From: a virus
IMG/VR virus record: IMGVR_UViG_3300010883_000274
Location: 1 to 30,063 of that record
Reading direction: 5' to 3' (one strand)
Length of the DNA: 30,063 bases
Shown: piece by piece, positions 1,191 to 15,958 of the stretch
Layout of the letters: each line of letters begins with the position of its first letter
Position numbering within the stretch: the first letter of the stretch is position 1
Notes under the pieces: generated by a model
What the model saw: the letters and a program-made list of their open reading frames with translations, nothing else
What the model was told of the DNA's origin: nothing
Databases searched by the model: none
Translations under genes and position numbers: made by a program

Positions 1191-1204
1191 AAGGATACGT
1201 AATT

Positions 1205-2944: not shown

Positions 2945-3022
2945 AAATATCTGTCATTACTTAATTCTAAGTAGTACGGTGACCGCACAATCTACTAGTT
3001 ACTACCTACAGCGGAGTATAAA

Positions 3023-3220
3023 ATGAGAACTAAACCAGCACACCTTGAGAACACCCATTTCTGGCAGTTACCAGATGATTCCTTGCGGTATATTATTGCC
3101 GATTGTAATGCCGCCGTTCAAGCAAATCCAAGCAACCCAAAATGTTACACTGGGCGGGGAAATTATGCCGACCAAATCAACGATGCTGCCACAATTTTAG
3201 GGTGGCGAGCGGAGACCTGA
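3023..3220 (+). CDS. Small phage protein with a YADQ-type helix motif
   Basis: 65 aa, with a GCGGAG ribosome binding site 7 nt before the ATG. The sequence reads FWQLPDDSLRYIIADCNAAVQANP and then NYADQINDAATILGWR, the pattern of a small helical protein found in many marine and T7-like phages (conserved L-R-Y-I-I-x-D-A, N-P-x-N/S-P-K and Y-A-D-x-x-x-D-A). Function unknown. It lies alone after the divergent promoter region; the next + strand gene has its own promoter at 3345-3374. Confidence 0.72.
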   Translation: MRTKPAHLENTHFWQLPDDSLRYIIADCNAAVQANPSNPKCYTGRGNYADQINDAATILGWRAET

Positions 3221-3344
3221 CCCAGGCGGTTTTAATAAAAGGCCCAGTAATTGGTTTGAGTTGGAAGGGGGTAACTAGCACGTATTCCATAAGCTCATTA
3301 TACCGAAAAGTTATAAAAACCCCATAATTTAGACTAAAAAGTCA

Positions 3345-3374
3345 TTAGACAGTCTCATCACAATTTGTTATAAT
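3345..3374 (+). promoter_or_regulatory. Extended -10 sigma-70 promoter
   Basis: Perfect -10 TATAAT (3369-3374) preceded by TGT, giving an extended -10. The -35 is TTAGAC (18-bp spacer) or TAGACA (17-bp spacer). Predicted start near 3381 leaves a leader of about 50 nt before the gene at 3431. The stretch 3221-3344 contains no gene I can support. Confidence 0.7.
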
Positions 3375-3430
3375 GACCCTACCCTGGGAAAATACTGGGG
3401 ATTTTAATCACTCAGATAAAGGTAGAGGCT

Positions 3431-3634
3431 ATGCAAGATTTACGACCGCAAGATCTAGTAGTGTGCAACCGCCGCGCTGATGCCGCAGTGTTTCGCGTGT
3501 TAGCAGTTGACGGGTTCAACGTTAAGATGGTCGATGCGGCGGTGCCTGATGTTCAGCCGCAGCACATTGACCGAAGTCTACTGTCGCGGCTAAACCGCCT
3601 GCAACGCGCCAGCTTTGCCCGTTACAGTCAATAA
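3431..3634 (+). CDS. Small basic protein, unknown function
   Basis: 67 aa, ATG preceded by AAAGGTAGAGG. The first 40 residues look like a small beta-barrel (LVVCNRRADAAVFRVLAVDG, then FNVKMVDAA), the last 25 are a basic helix (RSLLSRLNRLQRASFARY). This layout would suit nucleic-acid binding, but no family is recognised. It sits directly behind a strong promoter and ends with a weak hairpin, so it may be expressed as a single-gene unit. Confidence 0.65.
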   Translation: MQDLRPQDLVVCNRRADAAVFRVLAVDGFNVKMVDAAVPDVQPQHIDRSLLSRLNRLQRASFARYSQ

Positions 3635-3644
3635 CCACTCAACC

Positions 3645-3662
3645 GGGCCAAGGACGGCCCTT
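3645..3662 (+). terminator. Weak hairpin after the 67-aa gene
   Basis: GGGCC-aaggac-GGCCC (3645-3660) followed by only TT and then AAAATT. It lies between two convergent genes (stops at 3634 and 3667). The short U tract makes termination uncertain. Confidence 0.35.
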
Positions 3663-3666
3663 AAAA

Positions 3667-3864
3667 TTAACGATAGGTTTCCATTAGGTCCACTGCCTCC
3701 CGGTACTTGTCGCGCTCACCTTTGAGCTTTTCGACTTCAGCTTCAGACCTCTTAATCTGACTCAACAAGAAATCTATATCCATCCTGACGTGCTCGTAAA
3801 GGTATCCACCATCGCGTTGGTGCCCTTTTATGATGGACACCCTATCTGATTGTTCCTTAGTCAT
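3667..3864 (-). CDS. Small coiled-coil protein, unknown function
   Basis: 65 aa on the - strand. The ATG at 3864 has a strong AGGGGAG ribosome binding site 7 nt upstream, which makes a real gene likely. Residues 30-62 form a heptad-type coiled coil (FLLSQIKRSEAEVEKLKGERDKYREAVDLME). The N-terminal part is polar (HQRDGGYLYEHV). It is the second - strand gene among + strand early genes, convergent with the 67-aa gene and divergent from the zinc-ribbon gene at 3975. Function unknown; an oligomeric regulator or inhibitor would fit. Confidence 0.6.
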   Translation of the reverse strand: MTKEQSDRVSIIKGHQRDGGYLYEHVRMDIDFLLSQIKRSEAEVEKLKGERDKYREAVDLMETYR

Positions 3865-3937
3865 AACATATCTCCCCTCTGAAAGTCAGCAACAGACCAC
3901 AGGTTTTCATTTTTTTGTACAACTGTCAAGTGTTTTG

Positions 3938-3946
3938 TGATACACT
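3938..3946 (+). promoter_or_regulatory. Possible extended -10 element
   Basis: TGATACACT (TGn plus TACACT, 4 of 6) lies 29 nt before the ATG at 3975. TTGTAC at 3915-3920 is a -35 candidate but the 20-bp spacer is too long. Weak call, supported mainly by its place in the divergent gap. Confidence 0.35.
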
Positions 3947-3974
3947 TAACCTCTTTACTTTTGGAGTTAACGAC

Positions 3975-4226
3975 ATGGCAACACCTACACAAAAGGCGGA
4001 CTCTTTAGAAGCTTTTCTGACCGCAGCTACCGGTCTCGACCGACGTTCAAGCATTGTTAGTGATACGTGTGTCTTTTGCAGTGTCACGGTATCTAATAAA
4101 GCGGAGTTGTTTGCCCCCGGCGAAGTGGATACTTTTCGGGATGAGATCAGCCGTCGCGAGTACACCATCTCAGGTTTGTGCCAAAACTGCCAGGATAAGG
4201 TTTTCGGCATATGCTCGGTGAACTAA
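3975..4226 (+). CDS. Small zinc-ribbon protein
   Basis: 83 aa from ATG 3975, which has TTGGAG 8 nt upstream. Two CxxC pairs, C-V-F-C near residue 34 and C-Q-N-C near residue 71, plus a C-terminal GIC, suggest a zinc ribbon. The linker between them is acidic (EVDTFRDEISRREY). No family recognised; early position and a small zinc fold suggest a regulator or adaptor. The 3' end overlaps a possible 28-aa membrane peptide (4211) by 16 nt. Confidence 0.65.
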   Translation: MATPTQKADSLEAFLTAATGLDRRSSIVSDTCVFCSVTVSNKAELFAPGEVDTFRDEISRREYTISGLCQNCQDKVFGICSVN

Positions 4227-4297
4227 TTATTAGTGTTCCAACCATTTTGGTAATCTGTTGGATTGTCAAAGTGAGCCACGATTTCTTTAACTCATAA
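4211..4297 (+). CDS. 28-aa membrane micropeptide
   Basis: ATG 4211 has AAGG about 10 nt upstream. The peptide has one hydrophobic segment (LIISVPTILVICWIV) after a short MLGE start and ends with a polar KVSHDFFNS tail. It starts inside the end of the zinc-ribbon gene in another frame and ends 13 nt before the DUF3310 gene. Support is the ribosome binding site, the tight fit between genes and the composition only. Confidence 0.4.
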   Translation: MLGELIISVPTILVICWIVKVSHDFFNS

Positions 4298-4310
4298 AAG
4301 AGGTATTAGA

Positions 4311-4532
4311 ATGAATATGAAAGCAGACCACTACGGACCTAAGCATTACCGAGCCAAGTGCTCAGCTATACAACCCTGGACTTATATCACCTCACATAAT
4401 ATGCAGTTTTGTGAGGGTAACGTCATTAAGTATATAACGCGATGGCGGGAACCGTCCGGAGGTGGCGTTGAAGACCTCCGAAAAGCACGACACTATCTCC
4501 AAAAGTTAATCGATATAGAGTCGGAAGTGTGA
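4311..4532 (+). CDS. DUF3310 protein (T7 gp1.7-like)
   Basis: 73 aa, ribosome binding site AAGAGG 7 nt before ATG. The C-terminal two thirds match the DUF3310 pattern: FCEGNVIKYITRW, then EDLRKARHYLQKLID. In T7 the DUF3310 protein gp1.7 has been reported as a nucleotide kinase; whether this short form has activity cannot be read from sequence. The stop TGA overlaps a GTG start at 4529 (GTGTGA), which suggests coupling to a 52-aa gene. Confidence 0.85.
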   Translation: MNMKADHYGPKHYRAKCSAIQPWTYITSHNMQFCEGNVIKYITRWREPSGGGVEDLRKARHYLQKLIDIESEV

Positions 4533-4687
4533 GTGCCGCTAGGCGGGATTGGGAACGGGCACTATTGCAGGATGACCCCGACTACCAAGCTTGGCTTGAT
4601 GCTCGCAATCAAGAGGCGCAAGAGTATCAAGAGCGGGAGTATAACGGCTATGAACAGACGCGCAAAGCCAATAACAGTGGTGATTAA
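4529..4687 (+). CDS. 52-aa acidic protein, unknown function
   Basis: GTG 4529 overlaps the DUF3310 stop by 3 nt, a common coupling arrangement. The peptide is rich in W, Y, D, E, Q and R (RRDWERALLQDDPDYQAWLD..., then QEYQEREYNGYEQ) and likely helical. It overlaps the next gene (start 4650) by 38 nt in another frame. No clear ribosome binding site of its own. No family recognised. Confidence 0.5.
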   Translation: MSAARRDWERALLQDDPDYQAWLDARNQEAQEYQEREYNGYEQTRKANNSGD

Positions 4688-4883
4688 AACAGACCTGGAA
4701 AATTATTCAGAGTGTCTTGAGTGCCTAGAGGAGGAGTTAATTCGTACTGCAGTACTGGGAGAGGATCATCAGCGGTATTCTGGTCCGGAGGACTTGGTGC
4801 ATATGCACCGCATTCACGAGGCTTTAAGCACGTTGCGTTCACTTTGTAGCTGGGCTGATAGCTACGAAGGGACAATGCAATGA
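4650..4883 (+). CDS. 77-aa protein, unknown function
   Basis: ATG 4650 has GGGAG 10 nt upstream; a more 5' GTG at 4533 in the same frame would give a Gly/Pro-rich extension read from the neighbouring gene and is less likely. The protein is helical and acidic, with ECLECLEEELIRTAV near residues 21-35 and HMHRIHEALSTLRSLC near 53-68. Its stop overlaps the start of the next gene (ATGA, 4880-4883). Function unknown. Confidence 0.6.
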   Translation: MNRRAKPITVVIKTDLENYSECLECLEEELIRTAVLGEDHQRYSGPEDLVHMHRIHEALSTLRSLCSWADSYEGTMQ

Positions 4884-5059
4884 GGTGCAAAGCTTGTGAC
4901 ATAAAAATCGAGCGTGTCGGGTGGAATAAGGCGGGTAAGCGGCTGGAAGATTTGTGCAGAGTTTGTAGGGAGTTGGTATATTTGCCGCCAACCACCGATG
5001 AGCTAGTTTTTGACGATGGTTACCTTTTGGGAGCAGGTCAAGATGACAACTTGGATTAA
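4880..5059 (+). CDS. 59-aa zinc-finger protein
   Basis: ATG 4880 overlaps the previous stop (ATGA). Two CxxC pairs, C3-K-A-C6 and C26-R-V-C29, 19 residues apart, form a small zinc ribbon; the rest is a short acidic tail (TTDELVFDDGYLLG). The end overlaps the primase start at 5043 by 17 nt. Small zinc-ribbon proteins often precede the primase in T7-like phages. Function not known. Confidence 0.65.
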   Translation: MRCKACDIKIERVGWNKAGKRLEDLCRVCRELVYLPPTTDELVFDDGYLLGAGQDDNLD

Positions 5060-5903
5060 TCTTGAACAGTATGCGGATGACTTCCCAGGTGAAGGGACGG
5101 TTAAATTACACCACTGCAAAGACGGGCGGCATAATGACAGGCTTTATTTAACACGTACAGAAGATGGCAAGGTTGTGGGCTACTGTTTCCACTGTGGTGG
5201 ACGTGGTGTTTACACTCCACAGGCGTGTGACCGGCGAGCACTCAAACTTAAACCAAAACAGCAAGTAACAGACCCATTTAAAGCTTGGGATGTACCGGTA
5301 CTTGATGAGTGGTACACATCAAACAGGTGGCACACACCTGACTTTGGTAAAATACCACTTGACATTCGGAAGTGGTGGTTTTTAGCAGGACTTAACATCA
5401 GTGAATACAAGGACTTAGGAGTTAAATTACTAGACGGTAAGATGCCCGTTATACCGTTGCGTAATGACAACACAACGCGGTCTGCGTTCCCGTCTGAAAT
5501 TACTGGACTAGCTTTACGGACGTTTGACGAGAAGCTACCTAAGTGGATTCTGCTTGGTTCTAAAAGTCAAGCTCCATTTACAATTAAAACGAACCCGCAG
5601 ATTTTAATTCTCACAGAAGATTATTTGAGTGCAGTGCGCTGCAGCAGACTCGGCTCTGCATTGCCCTTGATGGGCACAAATTTATCTACAGAAAACTTTA
5701 AGCAAGTTACAAACTGGTATAAAGAAACGGGCGGGAAGGTTGTTGTTTGGCTGGACAACGATTCTGAGGTAGTTGTTCGTAAAGCTAAACAGCTATATGA
5801 TCGGTTAGCACCGCTTGTAACTTGTGATATAGTTTTGCTGAAAGTTGAGCCAAAGCACTTAACGAACGATTCTGAAATTAAGGAGATCATCAGTGGAGAC
5901 TGA
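5043..5903 (+). CDS. DNA primase (T7 gp4 N-terminal type)
   Basis: 286 aa. ATG 5043 is chosen because GGGAG lies 9 nt upstream; an in-frame TTG at 5010 is less likely. An N-terminal zinc-finger region (HHCKDG, then GYCFHCGGRG, residues about 24-55) is the template-recognition domain of phage primases. A TOPRIM domain follows: LTEDYLSA supplies the catalytic Glu (residue about 186) and VVWLDNDSE the D-x-D metal site (about 235). T7 makes primase and helicase as one polypeptide; here the primase stops and the helicase starts 11 nt earlier in another frame, with AAGGAG inside the primase end. The two probably assemble at the fork as separate chains. Confidence 0.88.
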   Translation: MTTWINLEQYADDFPGEGTVKLHHCKDGRHNDRLYLTRTEDGKVVGYCFHCGGRGVYTPQACDRRALKLKPKQQVTDPFKAWDVPVLDEWYTSNRWHTPDFGKIPLDIRKWWFLAGLNISEYKDLGVKLLDGKMPVIPLRNDNTTRSAFPSEITGLALRTFDEKLPKWILLGSKSQAPFTIKTNPQILILTEDYLSAVRCSRLGSALPLMGTNLSTENFKQVTNWYKETGGKVVVWLDNDSEVVVRKAKQLYDRLAPLVTCDIVLLKVEPKHLTNDSEIKEIISGD

Positions 5904-7146
5904 TATACTACTACTACTATCTAATCTATCTAGATATAAAAGATACTCTTCTCTTATAAGAGAAGAGAGATTAAGTGAAGATATAAGATTTATCTACAAA
6001 GACTTAAACAACTACTTCAACGAGCTTGGTAAAGAGGACGTGGATTGGATTGAATTTAAAGCTTGGGTTATCACCTTGAAGCACCCTTCAATGAACGAAG
6101 ACAGAGTAGCTTTGGTTGATGCGCTTTGCGACAAGCTTCACGCTTCAGGCGCTGTAACGGAAGGTGCCGTCATGCAGAATCTGTCAACCCGTTATTGGGC
6201 TAACCAGATTTCAGAAACAGCTTACAACGTTGTTTTAGGCAAAGCAGACATGCAGGACGTTAAGGAACAAATCAAAGAGTACAATCTTGAAGTTAATGGC
6301 GTTGCTTGGGACTTGGAGAACTTATCACTATCAAATTCAGAACTACTTGAGCAACTTAAAGATTTACGCGACGCGCCCAAATACAACTGGTCAATATCAG
6401 AACTTCAACTCATTCTTGGTCCGATATCCAAAGGTGATTTAATTATCGTGGCCGCACGGCCTGACGGTGGTAAAACTACTTTCCTTGCGACACAAGCAGT
6501 GCATTTTGCTAGTCAACTACCAGAAGGGGAGTGTGTGCTGTGGTGCAACAACGAAGAGGCAGGTTCAAGGATCAGACTTAGGCAAACTCAAGCAGCGTTA
6601 AATTGGACCCGTGAAGAGGTGATGAACGACTTAAACAAAAGTGTTGAGGAGTTCGAGAAGAAAGTTGGGGTTGGTAAGATACAAGTTATGGACAACACCA
6701 GTATGACGGTTCACGACATTGAAGCTGCGATTGAAGCGTGCAGCCCCAAGATTATTATTATTGATCAAATTTGGAAAGTTGGGGGGTTTGAGAAACAGTA
6801 CGGGACGGGGATAGACCGTTACGCTAAACTTGCACAGTACGTGCGTGACCTTGCTAAAAGATTTGGTCCGATCATAGGTGCTTCTCAACTTGACGGTACG
6901 GCGGACGACACAAAATACCCGCTAATGGGGAGCCTGTATGGCAGCAAAACTTCTGTCCAAGGTGAGGCGGACGCTATCCTAACAATAGGACAAAGTAGTG
7001 ATGAGGGTGCTGAGATGCGCTTCCTACGAGCACCAAAGAATAAGTTAAGCTACGCGCACAACGACTTCCGAAGTGCCGGTTGTGCTATCAAAATAGATAA
7101 GGAGCGAGCGCAACTAATATCACTGCTCGGGAACAATCATGCTTAA
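5893..7146 (+). CDS. Replicative DNA helicase (T7 gp4/DnaB type)
   Basis: 417 aa, GTG start with AAGGAG 7 nt upstream, overlapping the primase by 11 nt. Residues 1-150 are a helical N-terminal domain. The RecA-like core starts near 170: Walker A A-R-P-D-G-G-K-T-T (188-196), Walker B I-I-I-I-D (287-291), then GASQLDG and a GSLYGSKTSVQGEADAIL segment typical of gp4-type ring helicases. It would unwind the fork ahead of the polymerase and act with the separate primase. The first 30 codons are unusual: four CTA Leu codons in a row, several ATA and AGA codons, and a 22-bp perfect palindrome at 5946-5967. Confidence 0.9.
   Translation: METDILLLLSNLSRYKRYSSLIREERLSEDIRFIYKDLNNYFNELGKEDVDWIEFKAWVITLKHPSMNEDRVALVDALCDKLHASGAVTEGAVMQNLSTRYWANQISETAYNVVLGKADMQDVKEQIKEYNLEVNGVAWDLENLSLSNSELLEQLKDLRDAPKYNWSISELQLILGPISKGDLIIVAARPDGGKTTFLATQAVHFASQLPEGECVLWCNNEEAGSRIRLRQTQAALNWTREEVMNDLNKSVEEFEKKVGVGKIQVMDNTSMTVHDIEAAIEACSPKIIIIDQIWKVGGFEKQYGTGIDRYAKLAQYVRDLAKRFGPIIGASQLDGTADDTKYPLMGSLYGSKTSVQGEADAILTIGQSSDEGAEMRFLRAPKNKLSYAHNDFRSAGCAIKIDKERAQLISLLGNNHA
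5946..5967. repeat. 22-bp perfect palindrome in the helicase gene
   Basis: CTCTTCTCTT followed by ATAAGAGAAGAG reads the same on both strands over 22 bp. It is inside the helicase coding sequence, about 55 nt after its start, and follows an ACT microsatellite and ATCTAGAT. In RNA it can fold to a hairpin near the start of the helicase message; in DNA it may be a binding site. Confidence 0.7.
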
Positions 7147-8326
7147 CCAACACAATGCTATCATTCTTGATTTGGAAACAACTATCAACGCACCTGCCCC
7201 GCACTTTGGGGCAACTCCAACTTGGCCCACCAACAGGGCAGTGGCTTACGGCTTTCAAGTAGCGGGAGACCCACACGTATACCTACAATCGTCCGTAACA
7301 AGGTTGTTTGAATTGTTTGAGGAACTACCAGACGCTGTGCTTGTAGGGCATAATTTAAGTTTTGACCTGATGTACTTGCTTAAAACAAGTGACCGTGAAG
7401 CCTTCAAACCCCGTCCTTTGTGGGACACTATGAAATTCCACCACATACAAACAGGTAAAGCGGACCCAAACCCCTCGTTAGTCCGCGTAGCACAGTTTTG
7501 GGGTATACCTTTCAAGAAGGACGACGAGATTAAGGAGAGGTTCAAGCTTGGTATAGGAGCAGACCAAATAGATAAGCAACTGCTTTACGAGTATCTTGAA
7601 GCTGATGTGCGCGTAACCGCAGAAATCTTCTACAACCAACACCTGTATGCAAAGGAGCAAGGGGAGCTATGGACTCGGTATGTTTTAGAACTGATGCGAG
7701 GGATCAAGGCAACCTCCGAGATGTCTACCGTTGGGATAAGTTTCAATGTGCTTGGAGCAGCAAGCGAGAAGGCCAAACTAGAGGCTGAGCTACAGGTGCT
7801 TGAGAGTGCCTTCAAAACTAATTGGGAACATTGCTGGCCTCAAGGAGCAGGAACAGACTTCAACCCAAACAGCCCAACGCAGATTGAGACTTTGTTGTGG
7901 GGCGGGGAAGTTAAAATCCCTTATGACCAGGAAGTTTTGAACGAAGATGGTGAGGCTGTGCGATTCAAATCAGGCGCAAAAGTGGGGCAAGTGAAGACTA
8001 AGAAGACAACGAAAGTAGGGATAGTAAACCCTATGGTAACCAACTTGGCACAAGAGCTTTTCAAAAGAAAAGGCTGGGATATGAAGTCCAGCGCACAGAC
8101 GCTACAAAATCTTGTTAAATACGACAAAGCTATCGCCGGAGCTTTCGCCGCGGACATCTTAGAATTGCGGAACAAAGCAAAGACGATCACAACTTACTAT
8201 AAACCATATATAAACTTTGCAAACGAAGGGACGATCCACCCAGCGTACAACCACTGCGTCACGCAAACAGGTAGACTCAGTTCCTCCAAGCCCAACATGC
8301 AAAACATCACAAGTAAGGACAAATGA
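7139..8326 (+). CDS. DNA polymerase family A, N-terminal half (3'-5' exonuclease and thumb)
   Basis: 395 aa; ATG 7139 overlaps the helicase stop by 8 nt. The 3'-5' exonuclease domain is intact: Exo I D11-L-E13-T, Exo II LVGHNLSFDL, Exo III YLEAD. The thumb and start of the palm follow, ending with TQTGRLSSSKPNMQNI, the motif that precedes motif A in every family A polymerase. The frame then stops at TGA 8324-8326 after TSKDK. The palm/fingers are in the next gene, one nucleotide further on in the +1 frame. This half alone has proofreading residues but no polymerase active site. Confidence 0.92.
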   Translation: MLNQHNAIILDLETTINAPAPHFGATPTWPTNRAVAYGFQVAGDPHVYLQSSVTRLFELFEELPDAVLVGHNLSFDLMYLLKTSDREAFKPRPLWDTMKFHHIQTGKADPNPSLVRVAQFWGIPFKKDDEIKERFKLGIGADQIDKQLLYEYLEADVRVTAEIFYNQHLYAKEQGELWTRYVLELMRGIKATSEMSTVGISFNVLGAASEKAKLEAELQVLESAFKTNWEHCWPQGAGTDFNPNSPTQIETLLWGGEVKIPYDQEVLNEDGEAVRFKSGAKVGQVKTKKTTKVGIVNPMVTNLAQELFKRKGWDMKSSAQTLQNLVKYDKAIAGAFAADILELRNKAKTITTYYKPYINFANEGTIHPAYNHCVTQTGRLSSSKPNMQNITSKDK

Positions 8327-8327
8327 G

Positions 8328-9158
8328 ATGATTTTAGAGTACTTCACAGCCCGACCAGAGCATGTTTTAGCGGAGTTTGACTACAAGCAGCTAGAGGTGA
8401 GGGTATTAGCCCTCGCCAGCAAAGACAAGCAACTCATCAACGATATTAACGCTGGTATTGATATGCACACCTATTTTGCCAGCCAGATATTCAACAAACC
8501 TGAAGGTGATATAACGCCGAAAGAACGCCGAATGGCAAAAGGCTTTTCTTTCCAACTACAGTATGGGGCTGGAGCCAACGGAATATCACGCTTCTGGGAC
8601 GTTTCTAAGGCTCTAGCAGAGGACTTCATAGAAAACTACTACCAGCGATACCCTCAGATACGTTCGTGGCAGGAGGGGGTCCGTGATGAGGCTCACAGCA
8701 CATTAGAATATGCTGGAGATATGCGAGATGGGTGCTCGGTCATGCGGGGTAACATCCCTACGATTTGGAGGAAGCCCGGTGGGCAGACTTTAAGCCATTA
8801 CACAACCCTTACTGAGGAGGATAATAAACCCTCTTGGAAAGATAGCACTCCGCGTTTATCTTATACGAAAATTAAAAACTATCCGATCCAAGGCGCGGCA
8901 TCCGACATCTTAATGCTGATGTTGAACAGGTTGTCTGACTACTTGTGGCAAACCCCAGTTAAATTAATCAACACGGTTCACGATTCTGTCTTGGTTGAGA
9001 TACCAGAAACCGAAATGAGTTACTCGGGGCAAATACTGGAGCTTTTAGAGAGCGTACCTACGGTTTTACAACAAGTGTTTGGTGTGTGCTCCCCGATAGC
9101 CTTCCCTGTGGATTGCGCCTCGGGAAAAACTTTAGCTGAAATCAAAGGAAACAGTTGA
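8328..9158 (+). CDS. DNA polymerase family A, C-terminal half (palm and fingers)
   Basis: 276 aa. ATG 8328 lies 1 nt after the stop of the first half and has its own AAGGA (8315-8319), 8 nt upstream. Motif A is E-F-D18-Y-K-Q-L-E-V-R, motif B R67-x3-K71-x3-F75-x3-Y79-G, motif C T-V-H-D-S. All catalytic residues of a family A polymerase are present. The residue equivalent to E. coli Pol I 762 is Phe (F75). Removing one base at the junction (AAA-T-GAG) joins the halves into a normal 671-aa protein, so the split is clean with nothing inserted. Two subunits made separately, or a recent frameshift, are both possible. Confidence 0.92.
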   Translation: MILEYFTARPEHVLAEFDYKQLEVRVLALASKDKQLINDINAGIDMHTYFASQIFNKPEGDITPKERRMAKGFSFQLQYGAGANGISRFWDVSKALAEDFIENYYQRYPQIRSWQEGVRDEAHSTLEYAGDMRDGCSVMRGNIPTIWRKPGGQTLSHYTTLTEEDNKPSWKDSTPRLSYTKIKNYPIQGAASDILMLMLNRLSDYLWQTPVKLINTVHDSVLVEIPETEMSYSGQILELLESVPTVLQQVFGVCSPIAFPVDCASGKTLAEIKGNS

Positions 9159-9182
9159 CAGGCTTTTGCAGACTGCTATACT
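9155..9182 (+). promoter_or_regulatory. Strong internal sigma-70 promoter
   Basis: Perfect TTGACA (9155-9160), 16-bp spacer, TATACT (9177-9182) with a TGC extended -10. It overlaps the polymerase stop codon. Predicted start near 9189, about 35 nt before the 168-aa gene. Confidence 0.8.
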
Positions 9183-9223
9183 GTAATAGGTAACTTAATT
9201 TAATCTTAACGAGGGCAAATGTT

Positions 9224-9730
9224 ATGAAAGAAGCACTTAGTGGCAGCATAGTAAGAGTGGGAGCCAACCAGAAATCCTTTATATTAGCTGAACGGGATGA
9301 AATGTGGTTTGGAGCCTACGCGACGGACCAACTTCAAGGAGCAGGTTTGGGTGACACAGTACAGTTCTCTTATGACAGTGTAGAGAAGAACGGTAGGGTG
9401 TTTAATAACATTAAAGGCAATGTCGTGGTTCTTGGTAAAACAGCCGCTGCGTCTGCCAGTTCTGGTACACCAGCACCTAGCTTGTCAAGAGAGTGGTTGA
9501 TCCTCCGTCAAAACTCACTGACTAACGCTGTTAATTTTACGGCGAACAATCCCAACAGTGACTGTACGGTAGAGGCTGTACTTGCCACCGCTACAGCGTT
9601 TGTGGCTTGGACTTCAGGAGAAGCAGACGCGGAGCTTGAGGCAGCACCCGCACTAGAGAAGGGAGAACCAACAGTCGCGGATTGGAAAGAGGCGGCTGTC
9701 GGTCTTGTTAAAGAAACCGCGCTCGGCTAA
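9224..9730 (+). CDS. Putative ssDNA-binding protein (OB-fold-like)
   Basis: 168 aa. Residues 1-70 look like a small beta-barrel (alternating strands around SGSIVRVGANQKSFILAE, WFGAYATDQL, DTVQFSYDSV, FNNIKGNVVVLG). After a flexible Ala/Ser/Pro linker comes a conserved-looking helix REWLILRQNSLTNAVNF, and an acidic tail rich in E/A (residues 135-160). Beta-barrel plus acidic tail, placed between polymerase and exonuclease, is what a phage single-strand binding protein would look like; that function is inferred, not recognised from a signature. It has its own strong promoter, and a terminator 106 nt after its stop, so it can be made at a higher level than its neighbours. Confidence 0.6.
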   Translation: MKEALSGSIVRVGANQKSFILAERDEMWFGAYATDQLQGAGLGDTVQFSYDSVEKNGRVFNNIKGNVVVLGKTAAASASSGTPAPSLSREWLILRQNSLTNAVNFTANNPNSDCTVEAVLATATAFVAWTSGEADAELEAAPALEKGEPTVADWKEAAVGLVKETALG

Positions 9731-9745
9731 GAGAGGTAAAGACCT

Positions 9746-10609
9746 GTGGCAAACACAATAGCCTTGTTTGACGGTGACATTATAGCCTACCGCGCAGGCT
9801 TCGCTGCAGAGAAGCGGGTTTACTTTGATATACGTAACCCCCCAAAGGAGGGGGGTTCTTTTTTTGGGACAAAGAAAGAGGCTTTGCAAGAGGTAGACAA
9901 AGCGTATGTAGACTACCAACGAAACCTTGAACCGCTTGAGCATGCATTACAAAACGCTAAGTCCCTTATTGACGGGTCTTTAGAATATTTAAGGGAGGCG
10001 CGGGGTGTTCCTGTTAGTGATTATGTGACGTTCCTGTCAGGTAACGACCAAAAGCCTAACTTCAGATATAAAGTTGACCCTGAGTATAAAGCTAACCGAG
10101 ACCCAAAACATAAACCTAGTCACCTCCAAGGGTTAATAGACTATCTGGTGAAGAACCACGAGGGTTACCTCTCGCAAGGGTGCGAGGCGGATGACTTCTT
10201 TGGTCACGCCCAAACAGACGCTATTCGTAAAGGTTTGGTGCCGGTGATAGTGTCTGTTGACAAAGACCTAGCGCAGCTACCGGGGTTGCACTACAATCTT
10301 GTTAAACAAGAGTTAATAGAGATTTCTAAAGAGGAGGCTACCTTAGTCTTTTGGCGACAAATGCTGGAGGGAGACTCCGTTGACAACATAAAAGGTATTG
10401 CTGGTGTGGGAAAGGTCAAGTCTCGACAGTATATACCTGCTAAAACACCCGACGAGAAAGCAAAAAAGATTGTCACAAAATACTATCAAAGGGACCACGG
10501 TGATGGCTGGGAAAAGGAATACAACAAAAACTGCGACCTCTTATGGATATGGCGTAAAATCCCAGACAAATGCCCACACAAAGTCGAGCATACAGCCTTA
10601 CAGGTCTAG
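9746..10609 (+). CDS. 5'-3' exonuclease (FEN/T7 gp6-like)
   Basis: 287 aa, GTG start with GAGAGG 9 nt upstream. N-terminal IALFDGDIIAYRAGF carries the first metal-binding Asp; C146-E-A-D149-D150 and SVDKDLAQLPG are the central acidic motifs; GDSVDNIKGIAGVGKVKS is the helix-hairpin-helix region of FEN-type nucleases. In T7-like phages the enzyme removes RNA primers and degrades host DNA. An intrinsic-terminator hairpin lies inside the gene (9836-9865), coding for RNPPKEGGSFF. The last 107 nt overlap the endonuclease gene in another frame, yet the C-terminal DLLWIWRKIPDKCPH still looks like conserved protein. Confidence 0.88.
   Translation: MANTIALFDGDIIAYRAGFAAEKRVYFDIRNPPKEGGSFFGTKKEALQEVDKAYVDYQRNLEPLEHALQNAKSLIDGSLEYLREARGVPVSDYVTFLSGNDQKPNFRYKVDPEYKANRDPKHKPSHLQGLIDYLVKNHEGYLSQGCEADDFFGHAQTDAIRKGLVPVIVSVDKDLAQLPGLHYNLVKQELIEISKEEATLVFWRQMLEGDSVDNIKGIAGVGKVKSRQYIPAKTPDEKAKKIVTKYYQRDHGDGWEKEYNKNCDLLWIWRKIPDKCPHKVEHTALQV
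9836..9865 (+). terminator. Intrinsic terminator inside the exonuclease gene
   Basis: AACCCCCC (9836-9843), loop AAAGGA, GGGGGGTT (9850-9857): a perfect 8-bp stem with six G-C pairs, followed by C and seven T (9859-9865). It begins 90 nt into the exonuclease coding sequence. By the usual rules it is the strongest + strand terminator in the window. It would stop most transcripts from the promoter at 9155-9182 just after the 168-aa gene unless ribosomes translating the exonuclease keep the hairpin open. Confidence 0.8.
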
Positions 10610-11006
10610 ATTTGAGTTTAATATAGCTGCTTGGTTGGAGAAATCTGGTGTTGCTTTTGAGTACGAACCAAAGAAAATTAAGTATCTGCACCCTGTCCAC
10701 CAAGGCACTTGCTTCTCTTGTGCTTCCTCTTATGTCGGTAGACGCGCAGTGTACCTTCCCGACTTTTGGCTCCCTGAGCAAAGGCTTTGGGTGGAGGCTA
10801 AGGGGAGATGGCCGGGGTCAGGTAGGACCAAGACGTTAGCTGTGTTGAGCAGCGATAATGAACTTACGTTGGAAAATTTTAGGATGCTTTTCATGTATGA
10901 CAATTGGCTTACGAAGAAACACCGCCAAACGTATACCGGATGGTGCCAGACTCAAGGAATAACGTGTGCAACAGGTGTTGAGCTTCCAAAGGAGTGGTTA
11001 CGGTGA
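10503..11006 (+). CDS. Endonuclease I, Holliday-junction resolvase (T7 gp3-like)
   Basis: 167 aa from ATG 10503, chosen for AAAGGGA 8-9 nt upstream and a normal basic N-terminus. The T7 endonuclease I active-site set is present: E38 (YRSRFEF), D87 (YLPDF), E98 and K100 (VEAKG). The enzyme cuts branched DNA and takes part in host DNA breakdown. Between the first Glu and the Asp there is a C70-F-S-C73 pair and a small loop that may bind zinc. The start lies 107 nt inside the exonuclease gene, a long overlap for this operon. Confidence 0.88.
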   Translation: MAGKRNTTKTATSYGYGVKSQTNAHTKSSIQPYRSRFEFNIAAWLEKSGVAFEYEPKKIKYLHPVHQGTCFSCASSYVGRRAVYLPDFWLPEQRLWVEAKGRWPGSGRTKTLAVLSSDNELTLENFRMLFMYDNWLTKKHRQTYTGWCQTQGITCATGVELPKEWLR

Positions 11007-11009
11007 GTT

Positions 11010-11297
11010 ATGGTTGCTAAGTGGAAAAGGGTTCCCTTTGGTAACTGCTTGAGTGGTCTGACTAAGGTATTAAATAACCACAACGTAGAGTACGAAATAC
11101 ACTGGGGATATAACAGGGTTTTAATTTATCAATATTCTGTTCCTAGTTGGCTGTATTTTCCAAGCGCACAAAGGTATACAGAGTGGTATGAAGGTTATAA
11201 AGAACGCCTCCACGCGGGGATAGAAGCCTCCCCCTACCAATTCTTAAAACAAACACAGTTAACAAAGAAAGATACGGCTACAGAGCTTAATATATGA
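11010..11297 (+). CDS. 95-aa aromatic-rich protein, unknown function
   Basis: ATG 11010, 3 nt after the endonuclease stop; AGGAG at 10989-10993 is rather far away, so translation may be coupled. The protein is rich in Tyr and Trp (EIHWGYNRVLIYQYSVPSW, then RYTEWYEGYKERL) and basic. Its stop overlaps the next ATG (ATGA, 11294-11297). No family recognised. The position between a resolvase and a phosphoesterase suggests a role in DNA metabolism. Confidence 0.65.
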   Translation: MVAKWKRVPFGNCLSGLTKVLNNHNVEYEIHWGYNRVLIYQYSVPSWLYFPSAQRYTEWYEGYKERLHAGIEASPYQFLKQTQLTKKDTATELNI

Positions 11298-12055
11298 AAC
11301 ACGCGATGATTCCAGACACACAAATTTATCCTGGTAGTAAGACAGGACACTTGATTGCTGCAGGCAAGTACCTTAGAAAACACAAACCGGATAAAATCAT
11401 TATCATAGGTGATTGGTGGGACATGCCATCTTTGTCTAGTTATGATAGGCCGGGAGATAAAGGGTGGGAGACAAAGGACGTACACGCAGACCTAACTGTG
11501 GGTTGGGACGCTATGAAAACATTCCTTACCGCTGTACGCACTAGAAGCTATGACCCAGAGATACACTACTGTGTTGGGAATCACGAGGACCGCATTACCA
11601 GAGCAGCAGATACTGCTGCGACGAGGATGCTAGGGAAGTATCTTTCTCTTGAGGAGTTAATTCTTTCCCCCCTTGATGCGCTTGAGGTAAAGACACACCC
11701 ATTTTTGAACGTCATCCAACTAAACGGAATATGTTACAGCCATTACTTTGTTAACCCAAGTAGTTTGATGTCTAACCCGATTGGAGGCACAATAGAGAGC
11801 AAGTTAAAGAGTTTAGGGCACAGCTTTACAATGGGCCACCAACAACAAAAGCAAACAGGGGAAATTTATACATGCAATGGGCAAAGACGGCGTGGACTAG
11901 TGTGTGGACGGTTTTATCAAGATTACCACCCCTACCTTGGGCCGCAGAAAAACTTGCAATCTTGGAGTGGCATACTTATGAAGCACGAAGTCAAGCAGGG
12001 AGATTACGACTTGATGGAGGTGAGTATGTCCTATCTTCTGAAGGAGTATGGGTGA
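11294..12055 (+). CDS. Metallophosphoesterase
   Basis: 253 aa; the ATG overlaps the previous stop. Calcineurin-type metal-binding motifs are in order: I-P-D8-T-Q (in place of D-x-H), G-D40-W-W-D43, G-N96-H97-E98, then SHYF and GHQQQ supplying later histidines. The family hydrolyses phosphodiesters or phosphomonoesters with two metals. Substrate unknown; candidates are host or phage DNA ends, nucleotides or signal molecules. The first motif has Gln where most relatives have His, so one metal site may be altered. It ends with a GTGA overlap into the next gene. Confidence 0.82.
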   Translation: MKHAMIPDTQIYPGSKTGHLIAAGKYLRKHKPDKIIIIGDWWDMPSLSSYDRPGDKGWETKDVHADLTVGWDAMKTFLTAVRTRSYDPEIHYCVGNHEDRITRAADTAATRMLGKYLSLEELILSPLDALEVKTHPFLNVIQLNGICYSHYFVNPSSLMSNPIGGTIESKLKSLGHSFTMGHQQQKQTGEIYTCNGQRRRGLVCGRFYQDYHPYLGPQKNLQSWSGILMKHEVKQGDYDLMEVSMSYLLKEYG

Positions 12056-12240
12056 CTTTAACCGTTGAAGAGCTTGTAGAACGTATCGCGGACAGGTACG
12101 ATCCAGACTTTATCGTGGAGATTCTAGACATAACTTCCGAGAGCCTGCTGTATGCTTTCTTGGAGGAGGTAGTAGAGAAACAAGCCAGATTTGACTTGTG
12201 GGAGAACGGAAATGAAAGCGGAGAGGAGGAAGCGACGTGA
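12052..12240 (+). CDS. 62-aa acidic phage protein
   Basis: GTG 12052 overlaps the phosphoesterase stop (GTGA) and has AAGGAG 5 nt upstream. The sequence VEELVERIADRYDPDFIVEILDITSESLLYAF resembles a small conserved acidic protein of T7-like and marine podoviruses (pattern: D-P-D-x-I/L-V-E-x-L-x-I-x-S-E-x-L-L-x-A-F). Its acidic end EESGEEEA-type tail overlaps the start of a small basic gene. Function unknown. Confidence 0.72.
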   Translation: MTLTVEELVERIADRYDPDFIVEILDITSESLLYAFLEEVVEKQARFDLWENGNESGEEEAT

Positions 12241-12373
12241 CCCTTACGCGAAAGAAGTCAGAACCCCGAAGTACCGGCAAAGAGTCGTCCCGGACATCAA
12301 GAAATACGACAGAGAAAAAGAAAAAAGACAACGTTTCCGCGACCAAGAAGAACACCCTGTTCCTAGCGACTAG
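12212..12373 (+). CDS. 53-aa basic phage protein (RDPYAKE...PKYRQRVVP type)
   Basis: ATG 12212 has GGGAG 7 nt upstream. Residues 9-28 carry the pattern R-D-P-Y-A-K-x-x-R-T-P-K-Y-R-Q-R-V-V-P, which I recognise from small basic proteins of unknown function in many phages; the rest is Lys/Arg/Glu-rich. It overlaps the acidic gene before it by 29 nt and the gene at 12237 by 137 nt in another frame. A nucleic-acid binding role would fit its charge but is not shown. Confidence 0.65.
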   Translation: MKAERRKRRDPYAKEVRTPKYRQRVVPDIKKYDREKEKRQRFRDQEEHPVPSD

Positions 12374-12485
12374 CGTTATCGAGGGTTCCCACTACGTGGT
12401 CACACGTTTGGGCAGAGACATAGACACAAAAAACTTTAAGATTACTTACAACCTCTTAAAGAAACTTTACGAGGAACTTGAATGA
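12237..12485 (+). CDS. 82-aa protein overlapping the basic gene
   Basis: GTG 12237 overlaps the stop of the 62-aa gene (GTGA) and has GGAGGA 6 nt upstream, one of the best ribosome binding sites here. Residues 1-45 are low-complexity K/S/T/R-rich and are read across the same DNA as the 53-aa protein. Residues 45-82 (SVIEGSHYVVTRLGRDIDT..., then ITYNLLKKLYEELE) look like an independent folded end. Its stop overlaps the reductase ATG. The N-terminal half may exist only as a consequence of the overlap. Confidence 0.5.
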   Translation: MTLTRKKSEPRSTGKESSRTSRNTTEKKKKDNVSATKKNTLFLATSVIEGSHYVVTRLGRDIDTKNFKITYNLLKKLYEELE

Positions 12486-14413
12486 ACTTGTATCAAGAGT
12501 ATATTCACAAATCCAGATACGCCAGATATCGAGAAGACTTAGGGCGTAGAGAGACTTGGGACGAGACTGTAGACAGAGTAGGGGCGTTTTGGGATAAGCG
12601 TATCTCAAACTCGGCGTCCGAAGTAGCGCAACCTGAGCTAAAGAATCAACTTAAACTCTCTTTAGAGGCTATACGCAGAATGGATGTGATGCCCTCTATG
12701 AGGGTTATGATGTCTGCAGGTAAAGCGTTAGAGGACCACAATGTGGCAGGGTACAACTGTGCCTACGTACCTATTGATGATCCGAAAGTCTTCTCTGAAA
12801 TTGTTTATGTCTTAATGTGTGGTACAGGGGTTGGCTTTTCAGTAGAGCGGGCTTACGTTAACAAGCTCCCAAAGCTCCCTAGCGAGTTTGTAGACACTGC
12901 TATAGTTATCACAGTAAGCGACAGTAAACTAGGGTGGGCGGCTGCATACAAGGAGCTAGTAGCCCTTTTGTATGGGGGTTTGGTCCCCTCTTGGGATTTA
13001 AGTAAAATTAGACCCGCGGGGAGTAGACTCAAAACCTTTGGTGGCAGAGCTTCTGGACCCGCCCCGTTGAATGAGTTGTTCCAGTATACCGTCGAGACTT
13101 TCAAGAATGCTGCGGACAGACAACTCACAACGTTAGAGGTACATGATGTTGTGTGCAAGATTGCTGACATCGTTGTTGTTGGAGGCGTGCGGCGCAGCGC
13201 GCTCATCTCACTTAGTAATTTAACTGATGACCGCCTTCGAGGTGCAAAATCAGGGCAGTGGTGGAATGCTATAGAGGACGGTGGGACACCACATCGAAGA
13301 CTGGCAAATAATTCTGTTGCCTATACCTGCAAGCCTGATGTAGATAGTTTTATGTCAGAAATGGTTTCACTTTACAGAGACCACAGTGGAGAGCGTGGGA
13401 TCTTCAATCGAGAAGCAGCTAGGGCAAAATATGCAAACCACCGACGCGACGAGGACCACGAGTGGGGGTGCAACCCCTGCTCTGAAATCCTCTTGAGACC
13501 AGCGCAGTTCTGCAATCTCACTGAAGTTATTGTTAGACCAAAAGACACTTGGGAGGACTTAGTAGAGAAGATTAAATATGCTACCTTTATCGGCACCCTC
13601 CAAGCCTCCCTCACAGACTTCAAATTTATCTCTAAGCGGTGGAAGACTAACTGCGAAGAGGAGGCACTCCTTGGAGTATCGTTGACAGGGTGTTGCGACC
13701 ACCCCTTGCTTAGTGGACATAAGCTATCAATCGTTAGAAAAGATGAACTTGTTAAAGGGCTAGAGCTATTGAAGGAAACTTCAGTCCAGTATAATGCGGT
13801 GTACTCTGAAGCTTTGGGTATAAACCAAGCAGCCGCTATCACTTGTGTTAAACCAAGCGGCACAGTGTCCCAACTTTGTGATACTGCATCAGGTATCCAC
13901 CCACGCTACGCTCCCTACTATGTGCGTAGAGTACGAAGCGACACAAAAGACCCTTTGACAGCATTTTTACAAGACGCTGGTGTTCCTTGGGAGGCGGACC
14001 AGTTAAATAACGAGAACGTGGTGTTTTCTTTCCCTACTAAAGCACCTGATAAAGGTCTTTTTGTCGGTGATGTTGGGGCGGTAAGCCAACTTGAGACTTG
14101 GCAGCTATACAATGACCACTACACTGAGCATAAACCTTCTGTCACTATCTACTACGGAGAGGATGAGTTTTTGAACGTGTGTAACTACGTGTGGGATAAC
14201 TTCGACAGTATGAGTGGGATAGCCTTCTTACCCAAGAGTGGGCACACGTACCAGCAAGCGCCTTATGAAGAGATCAGTAAGGAGATGTATCTCTCGTTAA
14301 CCCAAACGATGCCAGTAGCGCTTGATTGGGATAGGTTAGCTGACTACGAGGATGCGGACAACACCTCTGTACAGCCAGAACTAGCCTGCAGTGCTGATAA
14401 CTGCGAGTTGTAA
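12482..14413 (+). CDS. Adenosylcobalamin-dependent ribonucleoside-triphosphate reductase (class II, monomeric)
   Basis: 643 aa; the ATG overlaps the previous stop (ATGA). It reduces ribonucleotides to deoxyribonucleotides using coenzyme B12. Key residues match Lactobacillus-type RTPR: redox Cys93 (G-Y-N-C-A-Y) and Cys344 (Q-F-C-N-L), thiyl Cys333 within N331-P-C-S-E335, and a C-terminal C636-x4-C641 pair that is re-reduced by thioredoxin. The Cys333-Cys344 spacing (11) equals that of Cys408-Cys419. The enzyme needs no second subunit and no oxygen but depends on host B12. It ends the + strand operon, which makes dNTP supply part of the replication transcript. Confidence 0.93.
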   Translation: MNLYQEYIHKSRYARYREDLGRRETWDETVDRVGAFWDKRISNSASEVAQPELKNQLKLSLEAIRRMDVMPSMRVMMSAGKALEDHNVAGYNCAYVPIDDPKVFSEIVYVLMCGTGVGFSVERAYVNKLPKLPSEFVDTAIVITVSDSKLGWAAAYKELVALLYGGLVPSWDLSKIRPAGSRLKTFGGRASGPAPLNELFQYTVETFKNAADRQLTTLEVHDVVCKIADIVVVGGVRRSALISLSNLTDDRLRGAKSGQWWNAIEDGGTPHRRLANNSVAYTCKPDVDSFMSEMVSLYRDHSGERGIFNREAARAKYANHRRDEDHEWGCNPCSEILLRPAQFCNLTEVIVRPKDTWEDLVEKIKYATFIGTLQASLTDFKFISKRWKTNCEEEALLGVSLTGCCDHPLLSGHKLSIVRKDELVKGLELLKETSVQYNAVYSEALGINQAAAITCVKPSGTVSQLCDTASGIHPRYAPYYVRRVRSDTKDPLTAFLQDAGVPWEADQLNNENVVFSFPTKAPDKGLFVGDVGAVSQLETWQLYNDHYTEHKPSVTIYYGEDEFLNVCNYVWDNFDSMSGIAFLPKSGHTYQQAPYEEISKEMYLSLTQTMPVALDWDRLADYEDADNTSVQPELACSADNCEL

Positions 14414-14426
14414 GGGTAGTGAGTAT

Positions 14427-14450
14427 AAAAAGCACCCGCCGAAGCGGGTG
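14427..14450 (-). terminator. Terminator at the convergence of early and late regions
   Basis: CACCCGC-cgaa-GCGGGTG, a perfect 7-bp stem. On the - strand it is followed by GCTTTTT, making a rho-independent terminator for the late transcript. On the + strand there is no U tract, so it would end the reductase transcript only weakly. Confidence 0.85.
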
Positions 14451-14486
14451 AATGAGAGGTGGGTACTTACTTACTTATGACTTTAA

Positions 14487-14753
14487 CTAGTCTGCTTCGC
14501 CGCAAACAGCGGCTACCGTTTTGTTATGCTGCACTATTTTCCGTTTATCTTCTACAGTAATGTTTGAGATGCTTTCCTCTGTGAGGTATATAGCTTTAGA
14601 GAATTCACAATCTTTAGTAAGTACTTGGACTTTGTCAGCAGACGCAGCACGGTAGGACCAAAAGGCAGAGGCGGCATTAACGCCTCCCAGTGCGAGTTCT
14701 GGTAGGATCGCGCAGCCCGTCGTTAAGCTCAGTAGCATCGTACTCAGCGACAT
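14487..14753 (-). CDS. Outer-membrane spanin lipoprotein (Rz1-like)
   Basis: 88 aa from ATG 14753 (an in-frame TTG at 14774 gives 7 more residues). The N-terminus is a short lipoprotein signal: MSLSTMLLSLTTGC with the acceptor Cys14. The rest is periplasmic and ends with DCEFSKAIYLTEES, then RKIVQHNKTVAAVCG, a pattern seen at the end of spanin-type proteins of marine podoviruses. It starts inside the Rz-like gene in another frame, the classic Rz/Rz1 layout. It would join the inner-membrane spanin to fuse the envelopes in the last lysis step. Confidence 0.72.
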   Translation of the reverse strand: MSLSTMLLSLTTGCAILPELALGGVNAASAFWSYRAASADKVQVLTKDCEFSKAIYLTEESISNITVEDKRKIVQHNKTVAAVCGEAD

Positions 14754-14889
14754 CCTTACGCACTTGCTCAACAATTTGTTGAATACTCCGTCTTTGACGA
14801 TCGGTCTCTGCTTGAGTGGCTGTACGTTCCCACCGACGCCCTACCCAAACTGCGCCCACCACTGCCGCTAGGACAGTAGCTACAACCAA
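14677..14889 (-). CDS. Inner-membrane spanin (Rz-like)
   Basis: 70 aa with a TTG start 2 nt after the holin stop. An N-terminal membrane segment (VVATVLAAVVGAVWVG) is followed by a charged helix (RRWERTATQAETDRQRRSIQQIVEQVRKDVAEYD) able to form a coiled coil, then an Arg/Thr-rich end read across the Rz1-like gene. Order holin, i-spanin, o-spanin is the usual lysis cassette. No own ribosome binding site, so translation is probably coupled to the holin. Confidence 0.65.
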   Translation of the reverse strand: MVVATVLAAVVGAVWVGRRWERTATQAETDRQRRSIQQIVEQVRKDVAEYDATELNDGLRDPTRTRTGRR

Positions 14890-14891
14890 AG

Positions 14892-15077
14892 TTAGATTGA
14901 TACAGGCTCGTTCGTGACAAACCTTAGTACTAGGTTTACGATACCCATGACCGCCACGAGCGCCTCCGCTTGTACTTCTGGAGTCAGCATATTAGTAACG
15001 CCAGCACCTTCAAGGATCACTGCGAGGACGGCTAAACCGTTTCCCCAGACTGTTTTACTTTTGTACCATTTCTTCAT
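14892..15077 (-). CDS. Holin
   Basis: 61 aa with a strong AAAGGAG ribosome binding site. The start KKWYKSKTVWGNGLAVLAVI and the end GIVNLVLRFVTNEP are typical of small phage holins of this type: a basic, aromatic N-terminus, two hydrophobic segments (about 12-30 and 39-54) and a charged tail. It would form lesions in the inner membrane at the end of infection. It is followed directly by the spanin pair. Confidence 0.8.
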   Translation of the reverse strand: MKKWYKSKTVWGNGLAVLAVILEGAGVTNMLTPEVQAEALVAVMGIVNLVLRFVTNEPVSI

Positions 15078-15093
15078 AGTTTACTCCTTTCCT

Positions 15094-15435
15094 TTAGACT
15101 GCAAACGAACTGCCGCAACCACATGTTGAGGTTACGTTTGGATTTCTAATTTCAAAGTGGCTCGATTCAAAGCTTTCGATATAATCAATTTTAGCCCCAT
15201 CGAGATACATAGCACTGATAGGGTCTACTACAAGTTTAACACCTTGATTTTCCACTACCACATCGTCATCCTCTTTCTTTTCATCCAAAGAGAAACCATA
15301 TTTAAACCCAGAGCATCCTCCGCCCGAGATTAGAACACGTAGATTTAAATTAGTGTCCATCTCACTATTATAATCTGGATCTAGTTCTAAAATTTCTTTC
15401 ACTTTTAAAGCTGCAGCATCTGCGAAGATAATCAT
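15094..15435 (-). CDS. A-type Fe-S cluster carrier (IscA/ErpA/SufA family)
   Basis: 113 aa, full family length. The three cluster-binding cysteines are present: C41 in SGGGCSGFKYGF and C105/C107 in the C-terminal CGCGSSF. The start is 1 nt after the previous stop; no strong ribosome binding site, so it is coupled. Cellular members hand [2Fe-2S]/[4Fe-4S] clusters to target proteins. A phage copy just upstream of holin and spanins could support host Fe-S enzymes late in infection or serve virion assembly; the target is unknown. One acidic loop (DEKKEDDDVVVE) differs from the typical host proteins I know. Confidence 0.9.
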   Translation of the reverse strand: MIIFADAAALKVKEILELDPDYNSEMDTNLNLRVLISGGGCSGFKYGFSLDEKKEDDDVVVENQGVKLVVDPISAMYLDGAKIDYIESFESSHFEIRNPNVTSTCGCGSSFAV

Positions 15436-15436
15436 G

Positions 15437-15613
15437 TCAAAAAGCGTCTTCCGCAGCTTCGTTTACGTCAATAGCGCCCAAGATGAACGCCTGCTGCTCT
15501 TCAAAAAGTCCCCTAAAATCCTCTAACCTCATAAAGCCTAACCCAGCTTTACTTTGGTGCTTGGCATAAATACCAAACAACACTTGAAGTTGCTCTTCAG
15601 TATAAAGAATCAT
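15437..15613 (-). CDS. 58-aa acidic protein, unknown function
   Basis: Two ATGs are possible; ATG 15613 is preferred because CGGAG lies 6 nt upstream, while it touches the ATG at 15619. The protein is helical (EEQLQVLFGIYAKHQSKAG, then LEDFRGLFEEQQAFILGAI) and acidic at its end (NEAAEDAF). It sits between the secreted protein and the Fe-S carrier, separated by 1 nt from the latter. No family recognised; a partner of the carrier is a guess based only on position. Confidence 0.6.
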   Translation of the reverse strand: MILYTEEQLQVLFGIYAKHQSKAGLGFMRLEDFRGLFEEQQAFILGAIDVNEAAEDAF

Positions 15614-15625
15614 CAGCATCTCCGT

Positions 15626-15958
15626 TTAAATAGAGCAGTGTAAATTCGCTAAACCTACCACAACGTCGCCTTTGTGGCCCTTGGCCTCTAGGCGCATAAC
15701 AAGTTCCCTAGCCTTCAATATCTCTGCTTTAAGAGCCTTGTATTGTGCGTGTGTTATTACACCATTTTTTAAGAGACCGCCTAAGAGCATTCTCCACCGT
15801 TCTATTACACTATCTCTGTCCTTTTCAGGAACCAAAACCTCTACAAACTCTACTACACGAGCACAGACTGTAGGCACAGGAAGCTCAAAAGCAGCGGCCT
15901 TTACGAAAAGCAACAACAACAGCATTAACAAAACCCCCTCACGTAGAAGGGACCGCAT
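15626..15958 (-). CDS. Secreted or periplasmic protein, unknown function
   Basis: 110 aa from ATG 15958, which gives a clean signal peptide: MRSLLREGV, a leucine-rich core (LLMLLLLLFV) and a KAAA-FELP cleavage site. The mature part is about 80 aa, helical and charged (VVEFVEVLVPEKDRDSVIERW..., then QYKALKAEILKARELVM) with two cysteines. Its start overlaps the end of the 2OG oxygenase by 20 nt. Export together with its place above the lysis genes suggests a role in the envelope, perhaps superinfection exclusion or lysis. No lytic-enzyme motif visible. Confidence 0.6.
   Translation of the reverse strand: MRSLLREGVLLMLLLLLFVKAAAFELPVPTVCARVVEFVEVLVPEKDRDSVIERWRMLLGGLLKNGVITHAQYKALKAEILKARELVMRLEAKGHKGDVVVGLANLHCSI

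Follow-up and report, generated by a model that had tools for sequence, protein, structure and literature searches.

Can one stretch of phage DNA encode part of an enzyme and at the same time mark the 3' end of the transcript of the preceding gene? This question is raised by a marine phage, IMG/VR virus record IMGVR_UViG_3300010883_000274, of which positions 1 to 30,063 were analysed (this whole stretch is called the window below). Its replication operon carries a gene for a 168-aa protein with a predicted OB fold (the OB gene), which is preceded by a sigma-70-type promoter and followed, within the coding sequence of a 5'-3' exonuclease, by a G-C-rich hairpin and a T tract. We propose, with a probability of roughly 0.67 on the comparative sequence evidence, that the OB gene forms a nested transcription unit and that the conserved hairpin is the 3'-end element of its mRNA, acting as an intrinsic terminator in the window and probably as a barrier to 3' trimming elsewhere. 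The elements concerned are as follows.

8217..9158, + strand: family A DNA polymerase, C-terminal part (PF00476, E 1.8e-42; phrog_17), with its TGA stop at 9156-9158 within the -35 box
9155..9182, + strand: predicted sigma-70-type promoter, TTGACA at 9155-9160, 16-nt spacer, TATACT at 9177-9182, extended -10 TG at 9174-9175
9224..9730, + strand: 168-aa protein, in the predicted model an N-terminal OB fold (about residues 1-75), a linker and C-terminal helices; relative of phrog_18140
9746..10609, + strand: 5'-3' exonuclease with a GTG start (phrog_107)
9836..9857, + strand: hairpin AACCCCCC-AAAGGA-GGGGGGTT within the exonuclease coding sequence, 8 pairs, 6 of them G-C
9858..9865, + strand: T tract CTTTTTTT (C and seven T) directly 3' of the stem, adjoining the hairpin

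Promoter and hairpin around the OB gene

The hairpin lies 90 nt past the GTG start of the exonuclease gene and 106 to 127 nt past the stop codon of the OB gene. It has the sequence features of an intrinsic (Rho-independent) terminator, with a G-C-rich stem of at least five pairs and a T run directly after it. Unlike ordinary intrinsic terminators, it sits in coding sequence, and in many relatives the stem persists with no T run behind it. A terminator scan of the window returned 38 sites, compared with 19.0 ± 5.0 in shuffles. By a stem-plus-T score based on a formula from the literature, only two + strand sites of the window exceed 0, namely 1921-1936 (48.0) and 9838-9855 (23.2), and none of 300 synonymous recodings of the latter segment equalled its score. 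A preliminary description of the window had placed correctly both the 8-bp stem with its seven T (9836-9865, beginning 90 nt into the exonuclease coding sequence) and the promoter just before the 168-aa gene (9155-9182, with extended -10). Its claim that this is the strongest + strand terminator holds inside the operon and fails for the window as a whole, where the site at 1921-1936, upstream of the replication operon, has the top score.

The promoter matches the consensus at 11 of 12 positions. Within positions 1-20000 of the window only one other site does so, at 3346, upstream of the operon, and the pattern at 9155-9182 has no second exact match in the whole record. Its -35 box takes in the TGA stop of the polymerase open reading frame (ORF), and this arrangement recurs in the relatives described below: among the 20 clusters with a locatable polymerase stop, the -35 box of the best promoter-like site falls on that stop in 16, the site has at least 10 of 12 matches in 14, and in 9 no more than 5 of 500 shuffled versions of the region equal its score. 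In two clusters (L076 and L090), better matches lay a little upstream of the assumed stop, beyond the reach of the scan. Since the stop codon supplies 3 of the 12 matches for free, the weight rests on the -10 box and the spacing. These data point to a near-consensus sigma-70 promoter that is conserved in position and predicted to be active. In the metagenomic phage genome ctOsX528, a perfect 12/12 promoter stands between the polymerase and a gene whose product aligns with the OB profile at an hhalign probability of 94.8. That promoter and the OB gene are separated by a tRNA-Leu (UAA) gene (L036, 1124-1207).

Conservation of the hairpin among relatives

Viral contigs were searched for relatives of the exonuclease; the best 80 of 182 were considered, and 61 records were grouped at 85% identity into 36 clusters. 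The counts below refer to 24 of these and omit the last 12, which have distant exonucleases. A stable hairpin is present at the corresponding place of the exonuclease gene in 19 of the 24 clusters. When all 36-nt segments of the exonuclease gene are compared, the most stable one is found 12-14 codons past a conserved YR in 17 clusters and near that offset in L090 and L094. For each cluster the segment was set against 2000 synonymous recodings; it exceeds them in stability at p ≤ 0.05 in 18 clusters and at p ≤ 0.01 in 15 (27 of 33 at p ≤ 0.05 when counted by record). The locus-wide comparison covered 22 clusters, as L026 and L084 have no usable OB gene; in 16 of these loci no other 170-nt bin holds an equally stable hairpin.

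The pattern of substitutions also favours an RNA structure. Only seven differences separate L019 from L020 in the first 300 nt of the exonuclease gene; four of them fall in the hairpin, where pairing is kept or improved, including a change from G-C to T-A through Arg-to-Ser and Ala-to-Asp replacements on opposite arms. Covariation among the 12 sequences that share one pairing register, the others having shifted registers, was 0.178; shuffles gave 0.081 ± 0.027, with none of 500 reaching the observed value, and slid controls did not exceed 0.053. The preliminary description had proposed looking for such compensatory changes, and both the paired changes and the covariation were found. Pairing registers and loop lengths vary between clusters, suggesting that the hairpin is kept rather than its sequence. 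L094 has its C-rich and G-rich arms in the opposite order, with a different encoded peptide and a strong T run. Nothing in Rfam reached the gathering score for the window and nine loci. In another subgroup, with a differently built exonuclease, L144 has a 7-pair hairpin near the exonuclease start, 43-63 nt past the OB stop (score -11.5), and its relative L148 has no such hairpin.

Two other roles for the hairpin were rejected on the same comparisons. An internal Shine-Dalgarno sequence or start in the loop finds no counterpart in the relatives, in which AAGGAGG is not kept. A minus-strand terminator as the main function would need a T run on that strand, which is seen only weakly and only in L010, L050, L063, L066, L068 and L090.

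Predicted transcript-end signals occur after the homologous gene outside coding sequence as well. L026, which lacks the intragenic hairpin, has a strong terminator (score 27.0) between the OB stop and the exonuclease start, and in its sister L025 this gap holds a stem of 11 pairs with a long loop, behind which stands TTCTTTTT. Among cultured phages, ICP2_2011_A and VP41s3 of Vibrio have an intergenic terminator directly 3' of the homologous gene (scores 19.4 and 9.5). In the cobaviruses CRP-5 and ICBM2, a strong hairpin with no strong T run stands directly 3' of the post-polymerase gene, the product of which is apparently unrelated to the OB protein. No post-gene hairpin of this kind was found in CRP-6 or ctOsX528. 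The order of a gene after the polymerase and then a transcript-end hairpin thus appears to be widespread, with exceptions; within the marine clade, the exonuclease gene seems to have taken up the hairpin. As a separate observation, L025 (679-754) and L068 (from 384) share a conserved structured element of about 80 nt, with an outer stem of GTTCTTCGCCG paired with CGGCGGAGAAC and a T-rich tail. It sits between the OB gene and the exonuclease in L025 and in the OB-gene leader in L068; it has no Rfam match, and the patterns tried retrieved only two viral contigs and no genome contigs.

How the OB mRNA may end

According to the proposed reading, host sigma-70 RNA polymerase would start at the promoter that overlaps the DNA-polymerase stop codon, and a short OB mRNA would end at the hairpin about 90 nt into the exonuclease gene. 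In the window, the hairpin with its good T run would act as a partial intrinsic terminator, partial because some transcripts must read through for the exonuclease and later genes. In relatives without the T run, it would probably block 3'-to-5' exonucleases after termination further downstream, as with the galE hairpin of Escherichia coli. We infer termination, stabilisation and partial read-through from these features; the separate transcription unit as a conserved arrangement is well supported by the comparisons of sequence. The preliminary description had likewise taken promoter and hairpin to bracket the OB gene, and both are indeed conserved in position in the relatives, while the T tract is not conserved together with the stem. 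An excess of OB protein and a low level of exonuclease, which it expected from this arrangement, would be possible consequences, as would control by translation of the exonuclease.

Several observations weigh against this reading. The stem-plus-T score is about 0 or more in only 6 of the 24 clusters (window/L005, L011, L013, L018, L014/L020 and L094), one of which, L014/L020, is borderline as a terminator (-2.4 to 0.6), and the state of the T run needs at least four changes on the tree. For these reasons a conserved T run was rejected as the main signal, and to call the element a conserved intrinsic terminator would be too simple; the constant feature across clusters is the stem. In the window itself, the energy of the stem alone is borderline against synonymous recodings (p = 0.0495), because Pro-Pro/Gly-Gly codons favour pairing. 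The tested segment of L090 and L094 was placed by hand after the hairpin had been seen. The intragenic hairpin is missing in five clusters (L008, L025, L026, L076 and L084), and in L008, L076 and L084 no nearby terminator with a good T run was found, the single, sub-threshold site of L084 lying 481-501 nt upstream (score -6.3). No terminator was found 3' of the homologous gene in ctOsX528. More distant exonucleases lack the hairpin: of the 12 distant clusters nine were scanned, and none has its most stable segment at a codon offset of 12-14. L008 is a close relative, with an exonuclease 73% identical to that of the window, and has lost the stem. It goes part of the way towards the case that the preliminary description named as contrary to its proposal, in which the protein is kept without the stem.

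The closest precedent is the E. coli gal operon, in which a 3' end of the mRNA lies about 130 nt past the galE stop, inside galT, at an eight-pair hairpin, G-C throughout apart from a single G-U pair; this end arises when galT translation fails to start, through Rho-dependent termination followed by trimming (PMC9239205). In both systems the genes are only a few bases apart and a hairpin of about eight pairs in the start of the downstream gene ends a short mRNA of the upstream gene, although for the window this end is a prediction. It is possible, though clearly less probable than the proposed reading, that the galE mechanism operates in the window too: RNA polymerase uncoupled by failed exonuclease initiation would be stopped by Rho, and 3'-to-5' exonucleases would trim the RNA to the hairpin, leaving a stable OB mRNA. 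The size of the stem and its distance from the upstream stop (127 nt, compared with about 130 nt inside galT; PMC9239205) agree with this explanation, as do the lack of a proper T run in more than half of the hairpin clusters and the post-gene hairpins of CRP-5 and ICBM2. Against it stand the seven T directly after the window stem, where galE has a Rho-dependent, trimmed end, together with a combined score that no synonymous recoding reached, and the strong T runs in ICP2_2011_A, VP41s3, L026 and L094. Moreover, unlike in the gal system, the OB gene has its own predicted promoter, and its hairpin is conserved over many phages while the sequence changes. In E. coli, 3' ends internal to ORFs are known, some of them formed by intrinsic termination (PMC7815308). 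Those described there are single sites in genes, whereas the hairpin described here keeps its position and its pairing in a clade of phages.

Constraint on the protein alone is disfavoured and improbable. A Pro-Pro-x-x-Gly-Gly turn of the exonuclease would impose CCC and GGG codons and so give a chance hairpin with no function in RNA; many members do encode PPxxGG, and the window segment has a mean stability of -11.0 kcal/mol even after recoding. However, stems persist where the peptide is RLPERGAS, SLPERGDS, RLPRNEGES, RDPEGVS, HPPSSPGRV or VGRGGPTF, they surpass synonymous recodings in most clusters as given above, paired nonsynonymous changes are seen, and terminators 3' of the homologous gene exist in noncoding DNA too. 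Slightly less likely again is a purely translational element, unconnected with the OB mRNA, that acts on the exonuclease by slowing the first part of elongation or by adjusting translation; this would suit the spacing between exonuclease start and hairpin, fixed at about 90 nt in most members, and leaves unexplained the T runs and the intergenic terminators of L026, ICP2_2011_A and VP41s3. The least probable explanation is an inverted repeat acting as single-stranded DNA or as a cruciform in replication or packaging: the repeat adjoins replication genes, but pairing is conserved where sequence is not, the + strand stem contains G-U pairs, and the + strand hairpin is more than 1 kcal/mol more stable than its complement in 11 of the 19 hairpin clusters, and the reverse holds, by the same margin, in two.

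The OB protein, its phage and the meaning of the hairpin

The OB-like fold that the preliminary description had ascribed to the 168-aa product is borne out by an AlphaFold2 model (predicted local distance difference test, pLDDT, 87.3; predicted template modelling score, pTM, 0.47). Residues 1-75 of the model resemble RecO (Z 9.1), Rim1 (8.4), PriB (8.0) and RPA (7.9) over about 70 residues, with Z values that are modest, and the best viral match of the model is a protein of Vibrio phage ICP2_2011_A. OB folds occur in aminoacyl-tRNA synthetases too. Among the relatives of the OB protein, 21 of 24 members belong to phrog_18140, a family of unknown function, and searches of Pfam and of the sequences of solved structures returned no significant family by which to assign the protein as a single-stranded DNA (ssDNA)-binding protein (SSB). 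A tblastn search of cultured phages with the window protein found no match; homologues in cultured phages were recovered with the proteins of relatives as queries. The fold and the position beside replication genes make an SSB-like identity plausible and suggest that the protein may bind ssDNA. The post-polymerase proteins of CRP-5 and ICBM2 matched no family at its cut-off; their acidic tails ending in Trp just resemble SSB tails.

The hairpin might be a translation-sensed attenuator that sets the ratio of the putative SSB-like protein to the exonuclease, an idea that we regard as doubtful. A ribosome promptly loaded on the exonuclease gene would reach the hairpin before it folds and transcription would continue; otherwise transcription would end and only OB mRNA would be made. 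Were the OB protein to bind the region around the exonuclease start, translation of the exonuclease would be repressed and, through this, downstream transcription shut off, and the supply of exonuclease would be tied to free ssDNA.

The window is a linear 30-kb viral record. Its + arm encodes a primase, a DnaB-like helicase, the family A polymerase, the OB protein, the 5'-3' exonuclease, an endonuclease I and a B12-type ribonucleotide reductase, and its structural genes are on the - arm. This layout matches cobaviruses (Zobellviridae, Cobavirinae), in which opposed arms and a single arm with polymerase, nucleases and a cobalamin-dependent ribonucleotide reductase are described (PMC6775973). 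The terminator described there is a bidirectional one between the two opposed arms, whereas the window has an additional hairpin inside the exonuclease gene. Cultured cobaviruses differ from the window in having another protein after the polymerase and exonucleases without the hairpin-bearing segment. A nucleotide search of the region against cultured phages gave no match; by tblastn, the nearest cultured exonucleases, cobavirus ones among them, are about 30-35% identical to that of the window. The family A polymerase of the window is split into overlapping ORFs in different frames (7139-8326 and 8217-9158), and the polymerase is also annotated as two genes in ICP2_2011_A, VP41s3 and ctOsX528. 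On the minus strand, 15939-16496 encodes a 185-aa protein with matches to DNA endonuclease families and to the end of a 2OG-Fe(II) oxygenase family (phrog_61).

In the open-access literature we found no description of an embedded transcript-end element in these phages, nor a direct precedent in phages or Zobellviridae. The parts are of known kinds. What appears unusual is that a phage clade keeps a transcript-end hairpin within the gene of a downstream enzyme, the amino acids of which change in a coordinated way. The 24 clusters provide a comparative set for studying translation-coupled termination at gene junctions. The analysis suggests that post-gene hairpins without a T run can be real RNA ends in compact operons, and these would escape programs that predict terminators only where a T run is present. 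In these phages, one stretch of DNA seems to be both nuclease coding sequence and the 3'-end signal of the preceding gene; as amino acids encoded on both arms of the stem change together in relatives, the RNA structure appears to shape the sequence of the enzyme.

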